Source of the DNA: Arthrobacter sp. SDTb3-6
GTDB lineage: Bacteria > Actinomycetota > Actinomycetes > Actinomycetales > Micrococcaceae
Length of the DNA: 64,000 nucleotides
Assembly: GCF_013376095.1 (NCBI RefSeq)
Contig: NZ_JAAMFN010000002.1
Span: forward strand, 62,001 to 126,000
Reading direction: 5' to 3'
Part shown: positions 46,934 through 58,110 of the stretch, one piece after another
How positions within the stretch are numbered: position 1 is the first letter of the stretch
Layout of the letters: each line of letters begins with the position of its first letter
Notes under the pieces: model-generated
Told to the model about the DNA's origin: nothing
What the model saw: the letters and a program-made list of their open reading frames with translations, nothing else
Databases searched by the model: none
Program-made: the position numbers and the translations under genes

Positions 46934-48223
46934 TCAGCCGGCGATGAGGTCGTGGCGCACGATGGTCTGGTCGCGGTCAGGGCCCACGCCGATGGCGGAG
47001 ATCCGGGTCCCGGACATGGCCTCCAGCGCCAGGATGTAGTTGCGGGCGTTTTCCGGCAGGTCCTCCATGGTGCGGGCGCCGCAGATGTCCTCGGTCCAGC
47101 CCGGGAAGTACTCGAAGATCGGCTTGGCGTGGTGGAAGTCGGTCTGCGTCATCGGCATTTCGTCGTGCCGGACCCCGTCGACGTCGTAGGCCACGCACAC
47201 CGGGATCTGCTCGATGCCGGTGAGCACGTCCAGCTTGGTGAGGAAGTAGTCCGTGAAGCCGTTGACGCGGGAGGCGTGGCGGGCCAGCATGGCGTCGTAC
47301 CAGCCGCAGCGGCGCGGGCGGCCGGTGTTGACACCGAATTCGCCGCCGGTCTTCTGCAGGTAGATGCCCATCTCGTCAAAGAGCTCCGTGGGAAACGGGC
47401 CGGCGCCGACACGCGTGGTGTAGGCCTTGATGATGCCCACGGCGCGGGTGATGCGGGTGGGGCCGATCCCGGAGCCCACGGAGGCGCCGCCGGCGGTCGG
47501 GTTGGAGGAGGTCACGAATGGGTAGGTGCCGTGGTCGACGTCCAGGAACGTGGCCTGCCCGCCTTCCATGAGCACCACTTCGCCGCGGTCCAGCGCCTCG
47601 TTGAGGACGTAGGTGGAGTCGATGACCATGGGGCGCAGGCGCTCGGCGAAGGCGAGAAAGTACTCCACCGTCTCGTCGATGTCCACGGCGCGGCGGTTGT
47701 ACACCTTGACCAGCAGCTGGTTCTTTTGCTTCAGCGATCCTTCCACCTTCTGGCGCAGGATGGATTCGTCAAAGACGTCCTGGATGCGGATGCCCAGGCG
47801 GGCCACCTTGTCCATGTAGGCCGGGCCGATCCCGCGGCCGGTGGTGCCGATGGCGCGCTTGCCCAGGAAGCGTTCGGTGACCTTGTCCAGCACCTGGTGG
47901 TACGGGGCCACCAGGTGGGCGTTGGCGGAGATGCGCAGCTTGGAGGTGTCCGCCCCGCGCGCCTGCAGGCCCTCGATCTCCTCGAACAGGGCCTCCAGGT
48001 TCACCACGCAGCCGTTGCCGATGACCGGTGTGGCGTTGGGGCTCAAAATGCCCGCGGGAAGGAGCTTGAGCTCATACTTCTCACCGCCCACCACCACGGT
48101 GTGCCCGGCATTGTTGCCGCCATTGGGCTTCACCACATAGTCGACCCGGCCGCCCAAAAGGTCCGTGGCCTTGCCCTTGCCCTCGTCGCCCCACTGGGCT
48201 CCGACGATCACGATTGCTGGCAT
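46934..48223 (-). CDS. purA: Adenylosuccinate synthetase
   Basis: 429 aa. It joins IMP and aspartate with GTP on the way to [19 protein letters not shown] (8-23) is the P-loop with the catalytic Asp and Lys; NNAGHTV carries the catalytic His; [31 protein letters not shown] and TGRPRRCGW follow. ATG 48223 is preceded by GGGGGAGG; upstream in-frame codons are not conserved. Confidence 0.97.
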
Positions 48224-48588
48224 GGGATCCTCCCCCTTGCTCATAAGTTGAGCCGGCCGCTGCATGGCTCGGCGGTTGTTCCGCCGTACACCGTCCGGAC
48301 ACGAAAATGCCCCTTGTCAACGCACCGGCCGTCTCCAACAGGGATTGGCGCCTGGCTGCGCTCAAAGGGGGTCTTGCGTCCCAAGTTTACCGGACGGGCG
48401 CGGCGGCCGCACATTAAGGCGCCGGATGCACGACGCCGGCACCCGCCTTCCCCGTTCGGCCCGCCCCTGCGGGGCAACGGTTTCGGGGCCTGGCGTCCTG
48501 GCGGAGATCCGGACCGAGGTGGGCGGGCAGGCGTCGGCCGTGTTCCTTTTCGCCGGACCGGCGGGATCCTTCTTCGTCGCCGCGGCGG
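48224..48588 (-). other. purA upstream region
   Basis: 365 bp between purA and the monooxygenase, without a supported gene. TAAACT on the minus strand (48384-48389) is a candidate -10 and would give a leader of about 150 nt; a small hairpin GGCGG-TTGTT-CCGCC lies within that leader near 48272-48286. I see no known riboswitch. Confidence 0.45.
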
Positions 48589-49809
48589 TCACGGCGGCCC
48601 CGGACGGTGCGGGCCGCCGATGAGCAGCGTGGCCAGGTACCGGTGCGGGTGCCGGCTTCGGAACGCCGCGCCCAGGACCTGCCGGAGCGCCTCCGCCTCC
48701 GGGCCCGGCGCGGACAGCGCCGCCTGCGCCCGGGTCTGCAGCAGGGCCAGCCGGCCCGCTTCGTGGCGGACGGCGTGATACTCCTCAAGCGATTCCAGGG
48801 GCGAGCCGCCACCGAGCACCGCAGCCAGCCGGGAGGCGAGGTCCACGGCGTCGAGCATCCCCGTGTTCAATGCGGAACCGCCGGCGGAAAACACGTGGGC
48901 CGCGTCCCCGGCGAGGAACACCCGGCCGGTCCGGTAGCGTTCGGCCAGGCGGCTGTTGGCCACCGTGGACCGCAGCCACTGGCCGCCGCTGATCGGCAGT
49001 TCCCCGCCCAGCACACGGCGGATGCTGTCCTTCAGCTCCTGCAGTGGCATTTGCGCCTCCGCCGCCTGGCTGCCCCGGGGCTCGTGCGTGGCGATGACGT
49101 ACAGGTCCTTGGGCGCGCCGCGGACCAGCGCCGACACCGGGGCGATCGTGAGGGAACCGGCCGCCGTGTGGTTGGCCTGGAAGAGCGCCAGCCGCCGGCC
49201 GCCGGGAAGTTCCACGGCGTTCCTGCGCCGGCGCAGTGCGCCGGGCGGGATCGTGACGCGGCCGATCCGCACCAGTTGGCTGCCCGTGGTTCCCGGGAAG
49301 CCGACGCCGAGATGGTGGCGGACGAAGCTGTGCGCGCCGTCGCACCCCACCAGGAATCCGGTGTCAAGGGAGCAGGCCCTGCCGTCGAAGGCGACGTCCA
49401 CGGCCACCCGCCGGCCGTCGTCGTGAAATCCGGTGACGGCGTGCCCGCGGCGGATGTCCACGCCCGCGGCCCGGGCCCGTTCCTCCAGCAGCGCCTCCAG
49501 CCGGCGCTGCGGGATGGGCAGGATCCGCAGGGCGTTGGGCCGCAGCGGGTTCAGCCGCAGCGGCAGCGCCCCGAAGGAGTAGCGGGGCACGGGGATGGCG
49601 TGCACGCCCTGCTGGCCGCGCAACAGCCCCCGCTTCGCCAGCAGGGGCACGATCCCGCCGACCAGGCCGTTGCCCTTGGGCATGGCATCGGGCTCAAGGG
49701 CACGCTCCAGGACCGTCACGGCCACCCCGGCGGCGGCCAGTTCACAGGCGAGCATCAGGCCGACGGGCCCCGCCCCGGCAATGGCCACCTGGGTCCGGTA
49801 CGGCTCCAT
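48589..49809 (-). CDS. FAD-dependent monooxygenase (PheA/TfdB-like)
   Basis: 406 aa. VAIAGAGPVGLMLACELAAAG at the start binds the FAD dinucleotide, VGCDGAHSFVRHHLG is the DG motif, and VFLAGDAAHVFSAGGSALNTG is the GD motif. These are the three marks of group A flavoprotein hydroxylases, often acting on phenols, polyketides or antibiotics. Substrate unknown. The gene starts just past the broken TfoX-like gene, using a GGGGAGGAGGG ribosome site. Confidence 0.85.
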   Translation of the reverse strand: MEPYRTQVAIAGAGPVGLMLACELAAAGVAVTVLERALEPDAMPKGNGLVGGIVPLLAKRGLLRGQQGVHAIPVPRYSFGALPLRLNPLRPNALRILPIPQRRLEALLEERARAAGVDIRRGHAVTGFHDDGRRVAVDVAFDGRACSLDTGFLVGCDGAHSFVRHHLGVGFPGTTGSQLVRIGRVTIPPGALRRRRNAVELPGGRRLALFQANHTAAGSLTIAPVSALVRGAPKDLYVIATHEPRGSQAAEAQMPLQELKDSIRRVLGGELPISGGQWLRSTVANSRLAERYRTGRVFLAGDAAHVFSAGGSALNTGMLDAVDLASRLAAVLGGGSPLESLEEYHAVRHEAGRLALLQTRAQAALSAPGPEAEALRQVLGAAFRSRHPHRYLATLLIGGPHRPGPP

Positions 49810-50205: not shown

Positions 50206-52911
50206 TCAGCCGGCCACCTTGAACACGCCGCGGGCGCCGCGCTCGGCGTCGACCATGTAGTGCGAGACGAACGGATAGCTGCCGGCCTGCGGGAAGGTGA
50301 GCTCCACGAACCCGCCCTGTGCGGGGGCCAGCGCCAGGGCCTGCGAGCCCGCCGTCGGGTCGGAGCCGTCCAGCAGGTAGCGGCCCTCGCTCCACACCGT
50401 GCTGAACTGCCCGCCCACCACGTGGAAGGACGTGGCCCGGTTCGGCCCGGCGTCGAGCACCCAGATGCGCACCTTTTCGCCCACCTTGGCCGTCAGCGGG
50501 CGGAAGCCGTACTGGTTGGCGTAGCCGTTGAACACCACTGCGTCCGGCTTGTCTGCCTGGATTTTCGCCAGGTCTGCGACGCCGTCCTGCGGGCCCAGGT
50601 ACAGCTCGGACTGGATGAGCACGTATTCCTTGTCCACCGGCGGCAGCTTCGGCGGGTCGATGATGACCGCGCCGAACATGCCGTTGGCGATGTGCTCGCT
50701 CATGGGCATGGTGCTGCAGTGGTACATCCAGATGCCTGCGCGCGTGGCCGTGAACGTGTATGTCAGCGACTCGCCCGGGTTGACGGTGCGCATGGGCTGG
50801 TCGGGGGCCAGGGAGCCGGCGTGGAAGTCGATCGAGTGGCCCATCGTGGCGTCGTTGGTGAGCGTGACGTTGAATTTGTCGCCGACCTTCCCCCGCAGCG
50901 TGGGCCCCGGCGCCGTGCCGTTGTACGTCCACAGCGTCTGCTTCACCCCGGCGGCCACCTCCGTCAGCTGGTCGGTGACCTTCAGCGCCACGTTGTGCAC
51001 GGTGCCGGCAGGCAGCGGCGGGATCACGGCATTGTGTGCCTTGAAGCCGGCCGCAGGCTGCTTCATGAAGTCCAGCAGCGACGCCGCACCGGGAGACGCT
51101 GCACCGGGAGCCGTGCCGGATGTCCCGCCGGACGCCCCGTGGTCCATGCCCGGCATGGCCGTGGGCGCCGGAGCCGCGCCCGTGGCGACGATGCTGAACA
51201 CCATGCCCTGCTGCCGGTGCCCCACAATGCTGCACCAGCCGTCCAGGTTGGCAGCAATCACGCCCGCGTCCACGGTGGCCTTCTCCCCGGGATACAGCCG
51301 CCCGGATTCCGCACCGCCCGCCGTGACGAGGTCGTGCACCATGCTGTCCACGTTCGTGACGTGGATGACCAGCCTGTTGCCCGCCGGCACGTCCACCGTG
51401 GACGGGTGGAAGCGCATGTCCTTCATGGTCATTTCCACCGTGGTGGTCTGGCCCGTGGCGTGGACGGCGGCCTGCGTGCCCGCCTGGCTGGGCCCGGGCA
51501 GGGACGACGGGTCGGCCACGATTCCGGCCACCACCACCAGTACGACGACGGCCAGCCCGGCGGCTGCCATCCCCCACCGGCGGCCGGGGGCCGGGTTCCA
51601 GGCGGCGCGCGGGGAAGGGGCGCCGGCACCGGCGGCCGGGGCGGCCGGCCGGGCACCCGGCGTCGAACTTTCCAAAGGTTTCGCCAGCAGCGCCACGCCC
51701 AGCAGCGGCAGGAACCAGGCCAGGCCCGCCAGGACCAGGAAGGCGGTGCCCACCCGGACCAGGCTGGGCACGGGCAGCAGGGACGCCACCAGCGCCACGT
51801 TGACCAGGACCACGCGGAACACGGCCGCCTTGTCCAGGATGGCGGTGCGCTGCCTGACCCGCGCCGGGCCGCCGCCCAAAACCACCGGGAGCAGGTAGCT
51901 CAGGGCCGCGCCGAGCACCTGGGCGGCAAAGCCCGCCGCCAGCACGGGCGCCACGGATTCGATGCCCTGGTGCAGCGCCGTCCAGGACCCCGCGGTTGCC
52001 GTCAGCCCGGCCAGCCGGGTGAGCGAGACCGCCAGCCACACGATCGCGGCGATGGCGGACAGCGGGGCGAAGTTGACCGGCGGCTTGCCGCGCACGGCCT
52101 TCGCCAGCGGAATGCACACGTAGACCACCCCGCCCAGGTAGGCCAGCAGGCCCACGGTGCACAGGAACATGACGCCGGCGGCGGCCCCGGCGGCCGTCAG
52201 GAGCACCCCGGCCAGCAGCGGGAAGGCGCCGTGGCGGGCCACCTGGTCGGCGCCGTCGGCCACGCGGGTGCGCAGCATGGTGGGCAGCAGCGTCATCAGC
52301 GTGCCCATGACGGTGAGGCCCACAAAGCCGAGCACGTTCACGGAGAGGTGGACCAGCAGCAGCCGTGCGTGGGCCTCGCCGGCAACGTTCGCGGCCAGCG
52401 CGGCACCCACGCCTGCGCCGACGGGCAGCAGCAGGCAGGCGGCAACGTAATACCAGACGGTGGCGCCGAAGCGGGACGGCAGGGCCCGGCGGGCGCGCAG
52501 GCCCAGCACCACGGCGTGCGCGGCCACCACGGCGCCGACCAGGATGCTGCCCAGCAGCGTCAGCAGCCAGATGTCCGCCACCATGGACACCACCACGGCC
52601 AGCACCGCCACGTTGAGCAGCACCAGCCGTGCGGCCATGCCGCGGGAGTCCGGGGTGGGCCCGCGCAGCAAGGCCTGGGCGAAGTGCCAGCTCCACACGA
52701 GGATCGAGTTGGTGACGGCGCCCAGGAACAGCAGGTGCACCATGAGCCAGCCTGAATCCGGGACGTTGCGGTGGATGAGGACCACCACCACCAGCGCCAC
52801 CAGCCAAAACACGGCAGGGGCGTTGGCGCGCAGGTGCCAGCCGGCCCGGTTCATGCCGCCGGGACCTTGCGGGGCTGCGGGTTTCCCCGGCGGTGTCAGG
52901 AAGATGTTCAC
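50206..52911 (-). CDS. nirK: Membrane-cupredoxin-NirK fusion: copper nitrite reductase
   Basis: 901 aa. Residues about 30-420 form roughly ten TM helices with intramembrane His (WSWHFAQALL, LLLVHLSVNVLGFVGLTVMG). A further TM helix lies near 450-470. Residues about 495-590 are a cupredoxin with candidate type 1 copper ligands (MVHDLV and WCSIVGHRQQGM). Residues about 640-901 are a two-domain NirK: HSIDFHAG (ligand His and catalytic Asp), YHCSTMPMSEHIANGM (type 1 Cys, His, Met and a type 2 His), and FVSHYMVDAERGARG (last type 2 His). It should reduce nitrite to nitric oxide, with membrane and cupredoxin parts passing electrons. GTG 52911 overlaps the upstream stop by 4 bp; an upstream in-frame start at 53004 is less likely. 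Confidence 0.85.
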   Translation of the reverse strand: MNIFLTPPGKPAAPQGPGGMNRAGWHLRANAPAVFWLVALVVVVLIHRNVPDSGWLMVHLLFLGAVTNSILVWSWHFAQALLRGPTPDSRGMAARLVLLNVAVLAVVVSMVADIWLLTLLGSILVGAVVAAHAVVLGLRARRALPSRFGATVWYYVAACLLLPVGAGVGAALAANVAGEAHARLLLVHLSVNVLGFVGLTVMGTLMTLLPTMLRTRVADGADQVARHGAFPLLAGVLLTAAGAAAGVMFLCTVGLLAYLGGVVYVCIPLAKAVRGKPPVNFAPLSAIAAIVWLAVSLTRLAGLTATAGSWTALHQGIESVAPVLAAGFAAQVLGAALSYLLPVVLGGGPARVRQRTAILDKAAVFRVVLVNVALVASLLPVPSLVRVGTAFLVLAGLAWFLPLLGVALLAKPLESSTPGARPAAPAAGAGAPSPRAAWNPAPGRRWGMAAAGLAVVVLVVVAGIVADPSSLPGPSQAGTQAAVHATGQTTTVEMTMKDMRFHPSTVDVPAGNRLVIHVTNVDSMVHDLVTAGGAESGRLYPGEKATVDAGVIAANLDGWCSIVGHRQQGMVFSIVATGAAPAPTAMPGMDHGASGGTSGTAPGAASPGAASLLDFMKQPAAGFKAHNAVIPPLPAGTVHNVALKVTDQLTEVAAGVKQTLWTYNGTAPGPTLRGKVGDKFNVTLTNDATMGHSIDFHAGSLAPDQPMRTVNPGESLTYTFTATRAGIWMYHCSTMPMSEHIANGMFGAVIIDPPKLPPVDKEYVLIQSELYLGPQDGVADLAKIQADKPDAVVFNGYANQYGFRPLTAKVGEKVRIWVLDAGPNRATSFHVVGGQFSTVWSEGRYLLDGSDPTAGSQALALAPAQGGFVELTFPQAGSYPFVSHYMVDAERGARGVFKVAG

Positions 52912-54119
52912 GCAACAGCTTTCGGAGGGTGGGTGGCCTGCCAGACCGCCATGACGGCGAAAAGCAGGAGGGAGATGACATTGAGCACGCCGCCGGCGAC
53001 CCACGCGCCGTGGATGCCGGCGGCGTCGCCCAGGCCCAGCCGCAACAGCAGCGATGCCTGCAGCAGCACCGCCGGGACCCAGAACAGCTCGGTGTACGGC
53101 AGCGGCTTGCGCAACACGGCCGGCAGGATCACGGACGCGTGGGCCATGATCATGGAAATGGTGAAGCCGAGGAACACCGCGTGGAGCACCGCGTCATAGG
53201 CGGCGCCGTCCAGCGTCCGGTCATGGAGCGCCAGCACGACGCCGGCAATCGCCAACCAGCCGTAGCCCGCCAGCAGGCACGCGGCAATGTAGCGCGGCAG
53301 GCCCTGGCCGCGGATGGTCTTGCGGGCGGCGTCATAGCCCGCCAGCCAGGCCACGATGGCCAGCAGCGAGAGCCCGAAGAGCGGGTAACCTCCGGCGGGC
53401 CACAACAGCGTGGCCACCGTGGAGATGGTCATGGCGAACGCCAGCAGCGTCAGGATGGGTTCAGCCCGCGGACTGGTAATGCCGATCCTGGCCAGTTCCA
53501 GCCGTTCCCCGGCAATGGTAAGCACCACGAAGCCGATCAAAAACGGCAGCAGGACTGCGACGTCGGGCACGCGCACCCACAGCGCCGCCGCACCGACGGC
53601 CGCCACCCCGCCAAGGACCTGGATCAGCACCACGTTGTCGCGCTGGCGCCGCCACAGCGGGACATACACCAGCAGCATGGCGATGGTGCCGGCCAACAGC
53701 ACCAGCTTGCCCACGGGCAGGGGCAGCGGGGAGATCATGAACAGCCCGGACAGGCCCAGCAGCGCCGGGGAGAGGTAGCCGGCGGCCCGGCCCAGCGCCA
53801 CGGAGCGTTCCAGGGCAATCACGGTGCCCACAAAGCCCAGGACCAGCAGCATGCCGTGGATTTCCGGGAACCTGTCCAGCTTCAGCGGCGCGTCGGCACC
53901 CATCAGCTGCAGGCCGGCGTTCAACCCCACCAGCAAGGCCGCCCCGGCGGGCAGCAGGAAGAGCATCCTGAAGCCGGGCCGGCGCAGAAACGCCCGGGTC
54001 CGGCGTTCCCGGCCGGCCTTCGACTTTCGGGGTTTCGGCGGCCGGCTTCCCGGCGGCACAGCGGCGGGCACCGCGGCTCCGGTCTCCTGCGGGGCGCCCG
54101 GCCGGCGTCCGGCACTCAC
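52908..54119 (-). CDS. NnrS-like polytopic membrane protein
   Basis: 403 aa with a basic N-terminal tail (to about residue 48) and some eleven TM helices. Conserved-looking His occur in PEIHGMLLVLGFVGTVIALE and LHAVFLGFTISMIMAHASVILP, strings like those of NnrS-type haem-copper membrane proteins linked to nitric oxide. It overlaps both neighbours by 4 bp, so it is made together with the regulator and the nitrite reductase. NnrS in other bacteria protects from NO stress; here that is inference. Confidence 0.65.
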   Translation of the reverse strand: MSAGRRPGAPQETGAAVPAAVPPGSRPPKPRKSKAGRERRTRAFLRRPGFRMLFLLPAGAALLVGLNAGLQLMGADAPLKLDRFPEIHGMLLVLGFVGTVIALERSVALGRAAGYLSPALLGLSGLFMISPLPLPVGKLVLLAGTIAMLLVYVPLWRRQRDNVVLIQVLGGVAAVGAAALWVRVPDVAVLLPFLIGFVVLTIAGERLELARIGITSPRAEPILTLLAFAMTISTVATLLWPAGGYPLFGLSLLAIVAWLAGYDAARKTIRGQGLPRYIAACLLAGYGWLAIAGVVLALHDRTLDGAAYDAVLHAVFLGFTISMIMAHASVILPAVLRKPLPYTELFWVPAVLLQASLLLRLGLGDAAGIHGAWVAGGVLNVISLLLFAVMAVWQATHPPKAVA

Positions 54120-54877
54120 GTGGCGGCAGCCGACGGCAGGCGCAGGGTGCAGATCCCCGGGGCGGCAAAGGGGACCAGCTCAACCCCGTCCTCCGGGACG
54201 CCGCTGCCTTCCAACAGGCCCTTGACCAGCCCCAGGTGCACGGCACAGACCACGGCCGGGTTTTCCCGGGCCGCCGCCACGATGGGGCAGGTGGTCAGGG
54301 TGAAGTCGGTGGCGTCGGCATTGCCCTGGATGCCAAAGCCGGCATCCCGCAGCGATGCCGCAACGTTCAGGCGCGTCCTGCGCCGCCGGGCGGGACCGGG
54401 CACTGTGCGGCAGGTGCCGGCCGCGCCCGTTCCTGCAGATCCGGCAGATCCTGCAGTTCCGGCCCCGGCGCGGCCGGACAGGACATGGGCCCACTGCCTG
54501 CCGGCAAGGTCCCCGGCGGCGGCTGGGTCGTCGCTCGTGGAGGCAATGTGGCGGGCCAGCGCTGCGGCCAGGGCGGCGTAGCCGGCAGGCCGCTGCTCGG
54601 GCACGGCGGGGGCATAAAGGGAGGCGGGCCGCCCGCGGCCGGAACGGTGCGCCGTCGTCCTGGTGGCAAAGCCGGCGGCCACCAGGGCGTCCAGGTGCTC
54701 ACGGGCCGTGTTGGGGTGCTGGCCGGTTTCGGCGGCCAGGGCGTCCACGGTGAGCGGGACGGCGGAGGAGCGGAGACGTTCGAGCACCGCTGCGCGCGCC
54801 TTGGAAATGGGGGCGACGGGCTCCGTGCCGCCCGGTTTGGGCCCGCGCAGCGGTGGTCCCGAAATATTATTTTCCAC
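54116..54877 (-). CDS. SufR-like winged-helix regulator with a Cys cluster
   Basis: 253 aa. Winged helix at about 25-90 (RAAVLERLRSSAVPLTVDAL, ETGQHPNTAREHLDALVAAG, RGRPASLYAP). The C-terminal third holds TTCPIVAAARENPAVVCAVHLGLVKG and PGICTLRL: the Cys-Cys-(His)-Cys pattern of SufR-type iron-sulfur regulators. It heads the nirK operon, so it is a candidate sensor of nitric oxide, oxygen or iron state. A Gly/Ala/Thr-rich insert (about 135-160) is unusual. GTG 54877 with no ribosome site; leaderless start likely. Confidence 0.75.
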   Translation of the reverse strand: MENNISGPPLRGPKPGGTEPVAPISKARAAVLERLRSSAVPLTVDALAAETGQHPNTAREHLDALVAAGFATRTTAHRSGRGRPASLYAPAVPEQRPAGYAALAAALARHIASTSDDPAAAGDLAGRQWAHVLSGRAGAGTAGSAGSAGTGAAGTCRTVPGPARRRRTRLNVAASLRDAGFGIQGNADATDFTLTTCPIVAAARENPAVVCAVHLGLVKGLLEGSGVPEDGVELVPFAAPGICTLRLPSAAAT

Positions 54878-54897
54878 GGAATTTATTGTAGTAATAT
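54864..54897. promoter_or_regulatory. Shared divergent promoter with inverted repeat
   Basis: ATATTA (54864-54869) and TAATAT (54892-54897) are complementary, 22 bp apart. On the minus strand TACAAT (54885-54890) lies 7 nt before the regulator's GTG; on the plus strand TAATAT (54892-54897) can be the -10 of the DUF2249 gene. The AT-rich stretch stands out from its GC-rich surroundings. Confidence 0.55.
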
Positions 54898-54942
54898 AAG
54901 CTCAGAATCGCCATTCCATCCACCGTCAAAAGGAAAAATGCC

Positions 54943-55692
54943 GTGAACAACCTGGTCCTTGCTTCCTCTTCCGCCGAGGCCGCCGCATTGGAAGAAGTCA
55001 ACAACCGTCTGGCGGAAGCCGGTGGAACGCTGGGCACGCTGGGCAAAAACCTGCTGTCCGCCGCATCGAACGCGGGCGGTGAACTGGCCGGCGGGGACCA
55101 GGCAAAGCTGGTGGAATTCACCGAAACGGAACTGCAGCCGCTGGCCGCAGCCTTTGCACAGGCGCTCTCCGGCGCCACCGGCAAGGACGCCGTGGTGGCC
55201 ACGCTGGCCGCCGGGCACAGTGCGCGGCTGGCCGAGGCCGCCAAGGCCCTGGAGGAACAGGATGCGCCGGCCCGGATCATCCACGCCGGTGCGCGCCTCC
55301 AGGAAGCCGGCGCGGCGTTCCTGGACCAGGCCACCGCGCTGGTGGTTCCGGCCCTGGCCCAAAACCCGGCATTCACCCTGTCCGGCATCCTCCCCGAGCG
55401 CGCCTCCGCACCTGCGGCCGCGGCACCGGCCACGGGCGGCTGCGCCTGCGGCGGCCATGACGAGCCCGGCCTGTCCGAGCTGGACACCCGGGTCATCCCG
55501 CACGCCATCCGCCACGCCACCATCTTTGGCGCACTTGAGGGCCTGTCCTCCGGCAAGGGCATCCTGCTCATTGCCAACCACAACCCGCTGCCGCTCCTGG
55601 CCCAGCTGGAACAGCGCGCCGCCGGCAAGTTCGCCGTCGACTATGTGGAGAACGGCCCGGAGACCTGGAAGCTGAGCATGGTCCGCAACTGA
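54943..55692 (+). CDS. Helical-domain protein with C-terminal DUF2249
   Basis: 249 aa. Residues 1-155 are all-helical and Ala-rich, perhaps a degenerate hemerythrin-like bundle (few His). A linker then holds GGCACGGHDEPG, a Cys-x-Cys-x2-His string. Residues about 180-249 are DUF2249: LDTRVIPHAIRHATIFGALEGL, LLIANHNPLPLLAQLEQRAAGKF and a final WKLSMVR. DUF2249 proteins commonly accompany denitrification genes. GTG 54943 has AAAGGA upstream. Divergent from the nirK regulator and probably under it. Confidence 0.75.
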   Translation: MNNLVLASSSAEAAALEEVNNRLAEAGGTLGTLGKNLLSAASNAGGELAGGDQAKLVEFTETELQPLAAAFAQALSGATGKDAVVATLAAGHSARLAEAAKALEEQDAPARIIHAGARLQEAGAAFLDQATALVVPALAQNPAFTLSGILPERASAPAAAAPATGGCACGGHDEPGLSELDTRVIPHAIRHATIFGALEGLSSGKGILLIANHNPLPLLAQLEQRAAGKFAVDYVENGPETWKLSMVRN

Positions 55693-56205: not shown

Positions 56206-57228
56206 CTACTTGAACGTCTTGCCGGCGGAACCGAGCTGCTGCGCGGCTTCCACCACACGGGCCGCCAGCCCCTTTTCGGCAGCGGCACCCCAGACACGGG
56301 GGTCGTAGGTCTTCTTGTTCCCGACGTCGCCGTCCACCTTGAGCACACCGTCATAGTTGGCAAACATGTGCCCGGCCACCGGGCGCGTGTACGCATACTG
56401 GGTGTCCGTGTCGATGTTCATCTTGATGACACCGTAGGAAACGGCATCGGCAATTTCCTGCGCGGAAGAGCCCGAACCGCCATGGAAAACGAGGTCGAAC
56501 GGGCTGTCCTTGCCCACCTTCGCACCCACCGCGGCCTGGATTTCCTTCAGGATCTCCGGACGCAGCTTCACATTGCCCGGCTTGTAGACCCCATGCACAT
56601 TGCCAAACGTCAGCGCCGTGATGTACCGGCCATTCTCACCGGAACCCAGCGCCTCCACCGTGGCCAGGCCATCGGCCACCGTGGAATACAGCTTGTCGTT
56701 GATGGCGTTCTCCACACCGTCCTCCTCGCCGCCCACGGCCCCGATCTCCACCTCGAGGATGATGTGCGCGGCGTGCGTGCGGGCCAGCAGCTCACGGCCG
56801 ATCCGCAGGTTTTCCGCCAGCGTCTCCGCCGAACCGTCCCACATGTGCGAGTTGAAGATCGGGTCCCGGCCCGCCTTCACCTCCGCCTCCGACGCCGCCA
56901 GCAGAGGCAACACAAAACCGTCCAGCTTGTCCTTCGGGCAGTGGTCGGTGTGCAGTGCCACGTTGACCGGGTACTTCTTCGCCACCTCACGGGCGAACGC
57001 GGCAAACCCCAGCGAACCGGCCACCATGTCCTTCACCCCCGCGCCGGACCAATACGCGGCACCACCGGTGGAAACCTGGATAATGCCATCGGTGCCGGCA
57101 TCGGCAAAACCCTGCAGCGTCGCATTCAACGTCTGCGAAGACGTCACGTTGACCGCAGGATAGGCAAACCCCCCAGCCTTCGCACGATCAATCATTTCGG
57201 CATACTTGTCCGGTGTTGCAATGGGCAT
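56206..57228 (-). CDS. fbaA: Class II fructose-1,6-bisphosphate aldolase
   Basis: 340 aa. Zinc enzyme of glycolysis and gluconeogenesis: VALHTDHCPKDKLDG (metal His and catalytic Asp), HIILEVEIGAVGGEEDG, LTFGNVHGVYKPGNVKL and FHGGSGSSAQEI. Close to the E. coli FbaA length and motifs. Followed without gap by DUF3151. Confidence 0.97.
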   Translation of the reverse strand: MPIATPDKYAEMIDRAKAGGFAYPAVNVTSSQTLNATLQGFADAGTDGIIQVSTGGAAYWSGAGVKDMVAGSLGFAAFAREVAKKYPVNVALHTDHCPKDKLDGFVLPLLAASEAEVKAGRDPIFNSHMWDGSAETLAENLRIGRELLARTHAAHIILEVEIGAVGGEEDGVENAINDKLYSTVADGLATVEALGSGENGRYITALTFGNVHGVYKPGNVKLRPEILKEIQAAVGAKVGKDSPFDLVFHGGSGSSAQEIADAVSYGVIKMNIDTDTQYAYTRPVAGHMFANYDGVLKVDGDVGNKKTYDPRVWGAAAEKGLAARVVEAAQQLGSAGKTFK

Positions 57229-57441
57229 GAAAAGCTCCTTGGGGCTATACGGTACAAGGTGGCAGCGCTGTTGGCCGCCTCCAGCATGGCTACCTCCATC
57301 TTAGCGATGGGCGCCATTGTGGCGAAGTAGATGAAGCCCTGTCTCTGCAGCGGACCCTTGACACGCACGACGGCGGGCCCTGGCCGGGTGCCGGACGCTG
57401 GCCGGTCGCCGGTTTCCTGTGGAATATCCGCAGGAAGTTGC

Positions 57442-58110
57442 TCAGGCCACGTGCTGGTTGAAGACGTGGCGGCGGATCCAGGCGTGCATGGCAATCCCGG
57501 CCGCCGCAGCCGCGTTGATGGAGCGGGTGGAGCCGAACTGCTCAATGGACAGGGTGGCCTGGGCCGCGGCGTGCACCTCGGCGCTCAGGCCCGGCCCCTC
57601 CTGGCCGAACACCAGCACGCAGTTGCGCGGCAGTTCAAACGTTTCCAGTTTCTGGGAGTCGGGGAAGATGTCGATCCCGATGATCGCCAGGCCCTCGTCC
57701 GTGGCCCACGCGACAAAGTCGTCCACGGTGGGGTGGTGGCGGACGTGTTGGTAGCGGTCGGTGACCATCGCACCCCGGCGGTTCCACCGGCGTCGTCCGA
57801 TGATGTGCACTTCCTTGGCCAGGAACGCATTGGCGGTGCGCACCACGGTGCCGATGTTCATGTCGTGCTGCCAGTTTTCAATGGCGATGTGGAAGTCGTG
57901 CCGGCGCGTGTCCAGCTCGGCGACGATGGCGTCCATCTTCCAGTAGCGGTACTGGTCCAGGACGTTGCGCCGGTCGCCCGCGGCCAGCAGTTCCGGGTCC
58001 CAGTGCCCGCCGTCCGGCCATGCCCCCTCCCAGGGGCCGACGCCCACCTCGTGGTGCAGCTCCGGGTGGTCGGTGGATTCCGGGGCGGGGGCGTTGGCGG
58101 GAGTGGTCAC
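57442..58110 (-). CDS. SPOUT (TrmH/SpoU) RNA methyltransferase
   Basis: 222 aa. SpoU motif 1 IENWQHDMNIGTVVRTANAF (Asn-Arg pair), motif 2 VLVFGQEGPGLS and motif 3 STRSINAAAAAGIAMHAW form the knotted SAM site. It methylates a ribose in tRNA or rRNA; the exact nucleotide cannot be read. GTG 58110 start. Confidence 0.9.
   Translation of the reverse strand: MTTPANAPAPESTDHPELHHEVGVGPWEGAWPDGGHWDPELLAAGDRRNVLDQYRYWKMDAIVAELDTRRHDFHIAIENWQHDMNIGTVVRTANAFLAKEVHIIGRRRWNRRGAMVTDRYQHVRHHPTVDDFVAWATDEGLAIIGIDIFPDSQKLETFELPRNCVLVFGQEGPGLSAEVHAAAQATLSIEQFGSTRSINAAAAAGIAMHAWIRRHVFNQHVA

Follow-up and report, generated by a model that had tools for sequence, protein, structure and literature searches.

We analysed a 64,000-nucleotide stretch of the soil actinobacterium Arthrobacter sp. 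SDTb3-6 (contig NZ_JAAMFN010000002.1, positions 62,001 to 126,000 of the forward strand; hereafter the window, whose own numbering is used throughout). A single gene on its minus strand (50206–52911, GTG start) encodes a 901-residue protein in which a membrane domain of twelve plus one transmembrane (TM) helices and a cupredoxin are joined to NirK, the copper nitrite reductase. We propose that this fusion is a membrane-integrated copper nitrite reductase whose N-terminal domain is a membrane electron-input module, a proposal on which our confidence is evenly divided. We base the electron-input role on the intact NirK and cupredoxin sites, the haem-protein fold modelled for the membrane domain, two histidines universal in that domain, and those of its stand-alone relatives that lie with nirK and cupredoxin genes.

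A conserved NirK fusion with intact copper sites

The first-pass annotation, made from the window's sequence, had described a one-chain membrane/cupredoxin/NirK protein, and this is confirmed by exact gene coordinates, by the Pfam and NCBIfam matches given below and by 80 of 80 relatives. In a genome collection, 443 of 448 candidate stretches encode relatives of the fusion, and all of the best 80 of these 443, which were fetched for locus comparison, match most of the length of the protein. One full-length fusion match was found in 21 of the 58 related genomes searched (own genome included), which, together with the 80 loci, rules out an assembly artefact or a unique case. The nearest named relatives are from Arthrobacter species.

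The cupredoxin (residues ~484–575; 51187–51462, minus strand) was assigned by Pfam PF13473 and the type-1 copper ligands H526, C560, H565 and M570, and the two-domain NirK core (residues ~638–901; 50209–51000, minus strand) by TIGR02376 and its copper ligands. Above the Pfam cut-offs, Cupredoxin_1 covers residues 484–548 and Cu-oxidase_3 residues 645–755. The NCBIfam copper nitrite reductase model TIGR02376 matches residues 637–901 (E = 2.6e-49) with a score below its curated cut-off (168 versus 296 bits), and a divergent NirK may be missed by this equivalog cut-off; membership of the copper nitrite reductases is thus indicated by the ligands and not by the cut-off. From characterised NirK, we take the type-1 ligands to be H692, C732, H740 and M745, the type-2 ligands H697, H731 and H884, and the catalytic residues D695 and H830. 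Residues were counted in 79 non-redundant full-length sequences (<90% identity, window included), four of 105 loci (L021, L026, L027 and L028) having been excluded from the full-length set as incomplete. All four ligands of the extra cupredoxin are intact in 79/79, as are the type-1, type-2 and catalytic residues of NirK with the exception of M745, which is present in 74/79, the window among them. Loss of the NirK Cys/His ligands, set beforehand as an observation that would speak against the first-pass annotation, was therefore not seen.

Could the NirK part nonetheless be inactive, or act on another substrate in the manner of a multicopper oxidase? The low TIGR02376 score and the replacement of M745 in 5/79 sequences would fit such a protein, but the remaining type-1, type-2 and catalytic residues are kept, the operon is conserved and narG, a source of nitrite, is present in the host genome, and we regard this explanation as very improbable.

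Some variants were seen among the relatives. In the 102-row alignment, which holds the window's own copy twice as well as same-species duplicates, Leu replaces the axial Met M745 in five rows and could shift the potential of the type-1 copper. At L021 (genome G016, same genus), the fusion is broken between cupredoxin and NirK into two overlapping frames. Two records labelled Sporosarcina and Bacillus (L030 and L067) carry operon sequences that are Arthrobacter-like and Blastococcus-like, respectively, which may reflect misnaming or contamination of the assemblies and not transfer.

Modelled fold and universal histidines of the membrane domain

An AlphaFold2 model of the membrane domain (residues 1–470; 51502–52911, minus strand), computed from a 63-sequence alignment (mean pLDDT 92.5, pTM 0.91), shows the subunit I fold of the haem-copper oxidases, with twelve helices and a thirteenth that runs into the cupredoxin. 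Foldseek searches of the PDB with this model gave six matches at E ≤ 0.001, all of them cbb3 oxidase entries (best E = 9.8e-5, probability 1.00, query TM-score 0.55–0.60), followed by cNOR, ba3 and aa3 entries, also with a probability of 1.00. Lys and Arg residues are distributed 23 inside to 2 outside when helix ends are placed by hand, and the cupredoxin and NirK would therefore face outwards. The membrane part had been described at first as about ten His-bearing helices: that it bears histidines holds, the count becomes 12+1 by the model, and the universal histidines are only H59 and H188, present in 79/79 fused and 12/12 stand-alone sequences. By plain helix order, H59 belongs to helix 2 and H188 to helix 6, and each lies in the outer half of the membrane domain. 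H47 and H132 are kept in 78/79 and 74/79 fused sequences, respectively, and in 0/12 stand-alone ones, and also kept in 12/12 stand-alone sequences are W55, G64, F77, G121, R147, Y155, T204, P210, T211, R216, Q331 and P342.

Three tblastn searches of plasmids found no relatives of the membrane domain. Elsewhere, a 150-residue frame containing THAHINLLGW (L158:5122–5571, minus strand, from G060:C4) matches the membrane-domain profile in its helix 5–6 region (E = 3e-9) and a nitric oxide reductase (NOR) profile in its TM10 region (E = 1.6e-5); judged from its sequence, it is a possible small oxidase-like protein that links the two.

Stand-alone relatives of the membrane domain

When 119 genomes of the phylum were searched with a profile, the membrane domain turned up in 19 of them: five fused, twelve in separate frames of ~410–640 residues, one in two open pieces and one as a short weak match. 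The stand-alone set comprises 12 of these last 14, leaving out the two open pieces (L151) and a 71-residue match (G060). A nirK gene lies in the same small cluster as the stand-alone membrane gene in 4/12 (L147, L148, L149 and L155), and L149 encodes NirK, the cupredoxin and the membrane protein in a gene each. The cupredoxin is at the NirK C-terminus in L148 and L155 according to profile matches (weak in L148, E = 0.0097) and in L147 by eye. Moreover, close to the L145 gene is one that encodes NosZ propeller and cupredoxin domains, L153 is near an NnrS-like gene, and Rrf2-type regulators adjoin five of the stand-alone genes (L145, L148, L149, L153 and L155). The Pfam searches of this gene context covered 20 chosen neighbours, none of them from L147 or L156, and the L150 contig spans 4,099 bases.

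In a midpoint-rooted tree, for which the tool issued a long-branch warning, all fused domains form one group (support 96/86) apart from two stand-alone groups. The domain of L026, split into two overlapping genes, is nested within the fused group and is a later split. Because stand-alone relatives exist, four of them are clustered with nirK and L149 has three separate genes, the membrane domain looks as if it had partnered NirK as a distinct protein at an older stage. We infer the order of events accordingly: association with nirK as an independent gene probably came first, and fusion followed in one actinobacterial lineage.

A proposed electron path and the evidence that weighs on it

The route by which NirK of Gram-positive bacteria receives its electrons has, to our knowledge, no settled answer. 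In the path that we propose, the membrane domain, with its modelled haem-copper oxidase subunit I fold and devoid of an oxygen- or NO (nitric oxide)-reducing site, would hold one haem b between H59 of helix 2 and H188 of helix 6. It would take electrons from (mena)quinol and pass them to the outward-facing cupredoxin, from there to the type-1 and then the type-2 copper of NirK, and NirK would reduce nitrite to NO outside the cell. Two neighbouring gene products, an NnrS-like protein and a DUF2249 protein, would probably handle NO or NO damage, and a third, a regulator, would probably sense NO or the redox state through an iron–sulfur (Fe-S) cluster. A more specific and distinctly more doubtful version is that the membrane domain represents an unnamed haem-copper-oxidase-fold family that lost its catalytic site and works, with the helix 2–6 haem, as a menaquinol:cupredoxin oxidoreductase, which would make the NirK fusion self-contained and independent of a bc1 complex or soluble carrier. 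The helix 2–6 haem site would presumably be the pseudo-symmetric counterpart of the low-spin haem site between helices 2 and 10 of the oxidases. If the quinol-oxidising module is real, the fusion would be the NirK counterpart of qNOR, with an oxidase scaffold reused for electron entry; the fold, the two candidate haem ligands, the topology and the stand-alone relatives make the function of the membrane domain directly testable.

Several observations weigh against this proposal. Sequence-level proof of haem-copper oxidase kinship was sought and failed by every method, so that the kinship derives from the model. PF00115 matched 1/63 fused members (6.6e-5), and this was not the window's protein; of the 12 stand-alone proteins, the 10 that were scanned gave no PF00115 or NCBIfam match; a sequence search of the PDB with the membrane domain returned a single chance match (E = 2.3); and the hhalign comparison with NOR (profile of 8 sequences) was unconvincing, with P = 0.044 and the domain placed on the N-terminal extension of qNOR. 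We take subunit I of the haem-copper oxidases and NORs to have six conserved histidines as ligands, in TM2, in TM6 and as pairs in TM7 and TM10. No conserved His was found in helices 7 and 10 of the membrane domain (numbered by plain order), so that the domain lacks the oxidases' catalytic site; it shares with that family the twelve-helix fold, as predicted by the model and Foldseek, and not the six histidines. Genomic context is also uneven, since L154 shows just a Crp-type regulator, and L146, L150, L152, L156 and L157 showed no denitrification genes by the profiles used and among the neighbours scanned. Genome G018 has a second NirK free of a membrane part and, in the available text of PMC4770552, all the actinobacterial NirK proteins of that study have the cupredoxin and not all have the membrane domain.

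The distal copper of the N-terminal cupredoxin in Hyphomicrobium NirK (HdNir) is described, in the accessible parts of PMC6400189 and PMC4770552, as unable to shuttle electrons. The chain-internal electron path put forward in the first-pass annotation is hence plausible, and better grounded now by the intact sites, the fold, the His pair and the nirK-linked relatives, with the Hyphomicrobium cupredoxin standing against it. The behaviour reported for that cupredoxin (PMC6400189) would suit a different role of the membrane domain, that of a dedicated anchor which also serves copper loading or assembly. H59 and H188 would then be copper ligands or structural residues, and external carriers such as a bcc-aa3 supercomplex would supply the electrons. 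It is established that NirK and cupredoxin require copper, and the haem in the membrane domain is our inference; set against this, the modelled fold is a haem scaffold, twelve helices would exceed what an anchor needs, and no Cys or Met figures among the residues listed as common to the fused and the stand-alone proteins. We consider copper loading possible, and on balance doubtful.

Profile comparisons with the NnrS-like protein encoded beside the fusion raise another alternative: in the manner of a haem-based NnrS relative, the membrane domain would bind nitrite or NO, or sense one of them, for substrate feeding or product removal, and would not oxidize quinol. The two align weakly in hhalign (P = 0.0032 and 0.0095, against 0.24 and 0.42 for reversed decoys), and the register is unstable, being collinear in one direction and shifted by about four helices in the other, a shift that could come from the pseudo-threefold fold; with true NnrS (profile of 12 sequences), the membrane domain aligned no better than decoys. 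The unstable register and this null comparison count against our electron-input proposal too. In favour of NO binding, both proteins sit in operons with NO-type neighbours, and no PF00115-family NO reductase was found in the host, as its sole PF00115 gene, a strong match, looks like an aa3 oxidase. The cupredoxin, however, is fused directly to the membrane domain, or is encoded with nirK in adjoining separate genes, which points to electron delivery, and we consider NO binding unlikely. The idea that the membrane domain and the NnrS-like gene arose by a recent duplication was discarded, their similarity being weak at most.

The operon and its NnrS-like protein

The fusion gene is preceded on the minus strand by genes for a 403-residue NnrS-like protein with twelve TM helices (52908–54119) and a 253-residue winged-helix (HTH_20, by Pfam) regulator with three conserved Cys (54116–54877), with 4-base overlaps at 52908–52911 and 54116–54119; a divergent DUF2249 gene (54943–55692, plus strand; PF10006, E = 2.3e-21) is a frequent neighbour. 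The tightly overlapped three-gene operon noted at first is upheld: both overlaps are exact and, in 80 named loci, the NnrS-like gene is conserved in 77, the regulator in 63, the divergent DUF2249 gene in 58 and all three in 55. The NnrS-like gene is 5' of the fusion in each of those 77, and one of the three misses has only 32 upstream bases. We dropped the overlaps alone as proof of an operon, neighbour conservation over 80 loci being the stronger evidence. The flanks (46934–49809 and 56206–58110) hold what we take, by eye, to be housekeeping-type genes, for adenylosuccinate synthetase, an FAD monooxygenase, an aldolase and an rRNA methyltransferase. A scan for sigma-70 promoters and terminators gave 0 and 2 matches, not above shuffles, and comparison with PHROGs gave zero matches.

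Pfam assigned no family to the NnrS-like protein, and the NnrS family PF05940 matched 5/64 members at E ≤ 1 (best 0.098), the window's own genome giving no match. Its model (mean pLDDT 93.2) retrieved haem-copper oxidases with Foldseek at a probability of 1.00, with a best E of 2.0e-3 and none at E ≤ 0.001, and its invariant histidines are H88 in helix 2 and H313 and H327 in helix 10. Aligned with twelve NnrS sequences, it keeps a collinear register along almost its entire length whichever way the comparison is run (P = 0.0012 and 0.015, against 0.37 and 0.49 for reversed decoys). Its first description as NnrS-like is therefore tentative, drawing on this weak alignment and not on recognition by Pfam; on this sequence evidence, the protein may at best be a distant NnrS relative.

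Proteobacterial relatives of the NnrS-like protein adjoin NO genes. A tblastn search of plasmids identified relatives in 11 records, and in the three inspected they lie among DUF2249 genes and, variously, genes for qNOR, hemerythrin, Rrf2 and metal-sulfur cluster assembly, in two cases beside true NnrS genes. Of the 119 genomes, six have an NnrS-like gene, and four of these six, the window's own genome included, encode the membrane domain as well (hypergeometric P = 0.006). Separately, plasmid clusters at L112, L113 and L132:2446–4963 contain DUF2249 and metal-sulfur cluster assembly factor genes next to NnrS or NOR genes, and an unnamed membrane protein in these clusters is a homologue of the NnrS-like protein in L112 and L113 and not in L132 (E = 4).

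Regulator and upstream block

The regulator residues C197, C211 and C243 are conserved in 100, 100 and 97% of 35 non-redundant sequences, in line with the Fe-S-type regulator originally recognised, the cluster itself being a prediction. The combination of HTH_20 and three Cys resembles, we assume, SufR-type Fe-S regulators, and the protein has both the winged helix and the three conserved Cys of that type. Directly 5' of the regulator GTG lies a conserved promoter-like block (54870–54910, minus strand), recognised by conserved 8-mers in 62 upstream stretches. The exact sequence CCGTGGAAA occurs in 32/62 stretches, with its GTG in frame in 32/32, and TACAAT, TACACT or TACAGT is found by eye seven bases 5' of this GTG in 30/32, a pattern in the DNA which suggests that the regulator transcript is leaderless across many actinobacteria. 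No gapped palindromes stood out as an operator in the upstream stretches, and the conserved block proved to contain the regulator's own start.

Comparison with known systems

That related fusions exist in other actinobacteria, earlier raised as a possibility, is borne out, and their architecture appears in PMC4770552 and PMC5338063. The available text of the former, which cites Ellis 2007 for this protein, describes Propionibacterium acnes NirK as ~900 residues long, with a CX4HX4M cupredoxin and 400 residues of membrane domain, to which no known function is assigned; that of the latter gives 882 residues and 13 predicted helices for Corynebacterium pseudotuberculosis NirK. Both share with the window's protein a membrane part of ~400–500 residues and NirK, the extra cupredoxin being stated for P. 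acnes. In the same portions of these accounts, the membrane part is of unknown function or membrane-associated, with no mention of a fold, a His pair or stand-alone partners. HdNir of Hyphomicrobium denitrificans likewise has the N-terminal cupredoxin–NirK order; the accessible descriptions give no membrane domain and place the extra copper too far from the core for electron transfer. Other Nir fusions are treated, in the parts available, in PMC8756737 and PMC13324648.

The cbb3 subunit I (CcoN) and the cNOR subunit NorB share with the membrane domain the modelled 12-helix fold, the early TM2 His and, by helix order, the TM6 His, whereas the TM7 His pair and the TM10 HxH are missing from the membrane domain and there is no convincing sequence match. 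NnrS (PF05940) and the neighbour protein have an NO-gene context in common and, going by the weak collinear profile match, may also share His in TM2 and TM10, but the neighbour protein is unrecognised by the Pfam NnrS family and its proteobacterial relatives sit beside true NnrS. As in the window's fusion, TsNirK, presumably from Thermus, and Ralstonia RpNiR tether a third redox domain to NirK, but there it is a cupredoxin or cytochrome c placed at the C-terminus, and neither protein is described as having a membrane domain. The C-terminal cupredoxin order of the TsNirK type also occurs in L148 and L155 (by profile) and L147 (by eye), the loci with a stand-alone membrane gene. In the openly searchable literature (subscription papers and preprints excluded), no account was found, in the text accessible, that assigns an oxidase fold to the membrane domain. 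The architecture of the fusion is already published and common in actinobacteria, though little studied, whereas three features of its membrane domain appear to be new: its fold, its His pair and its stand-alone partners.

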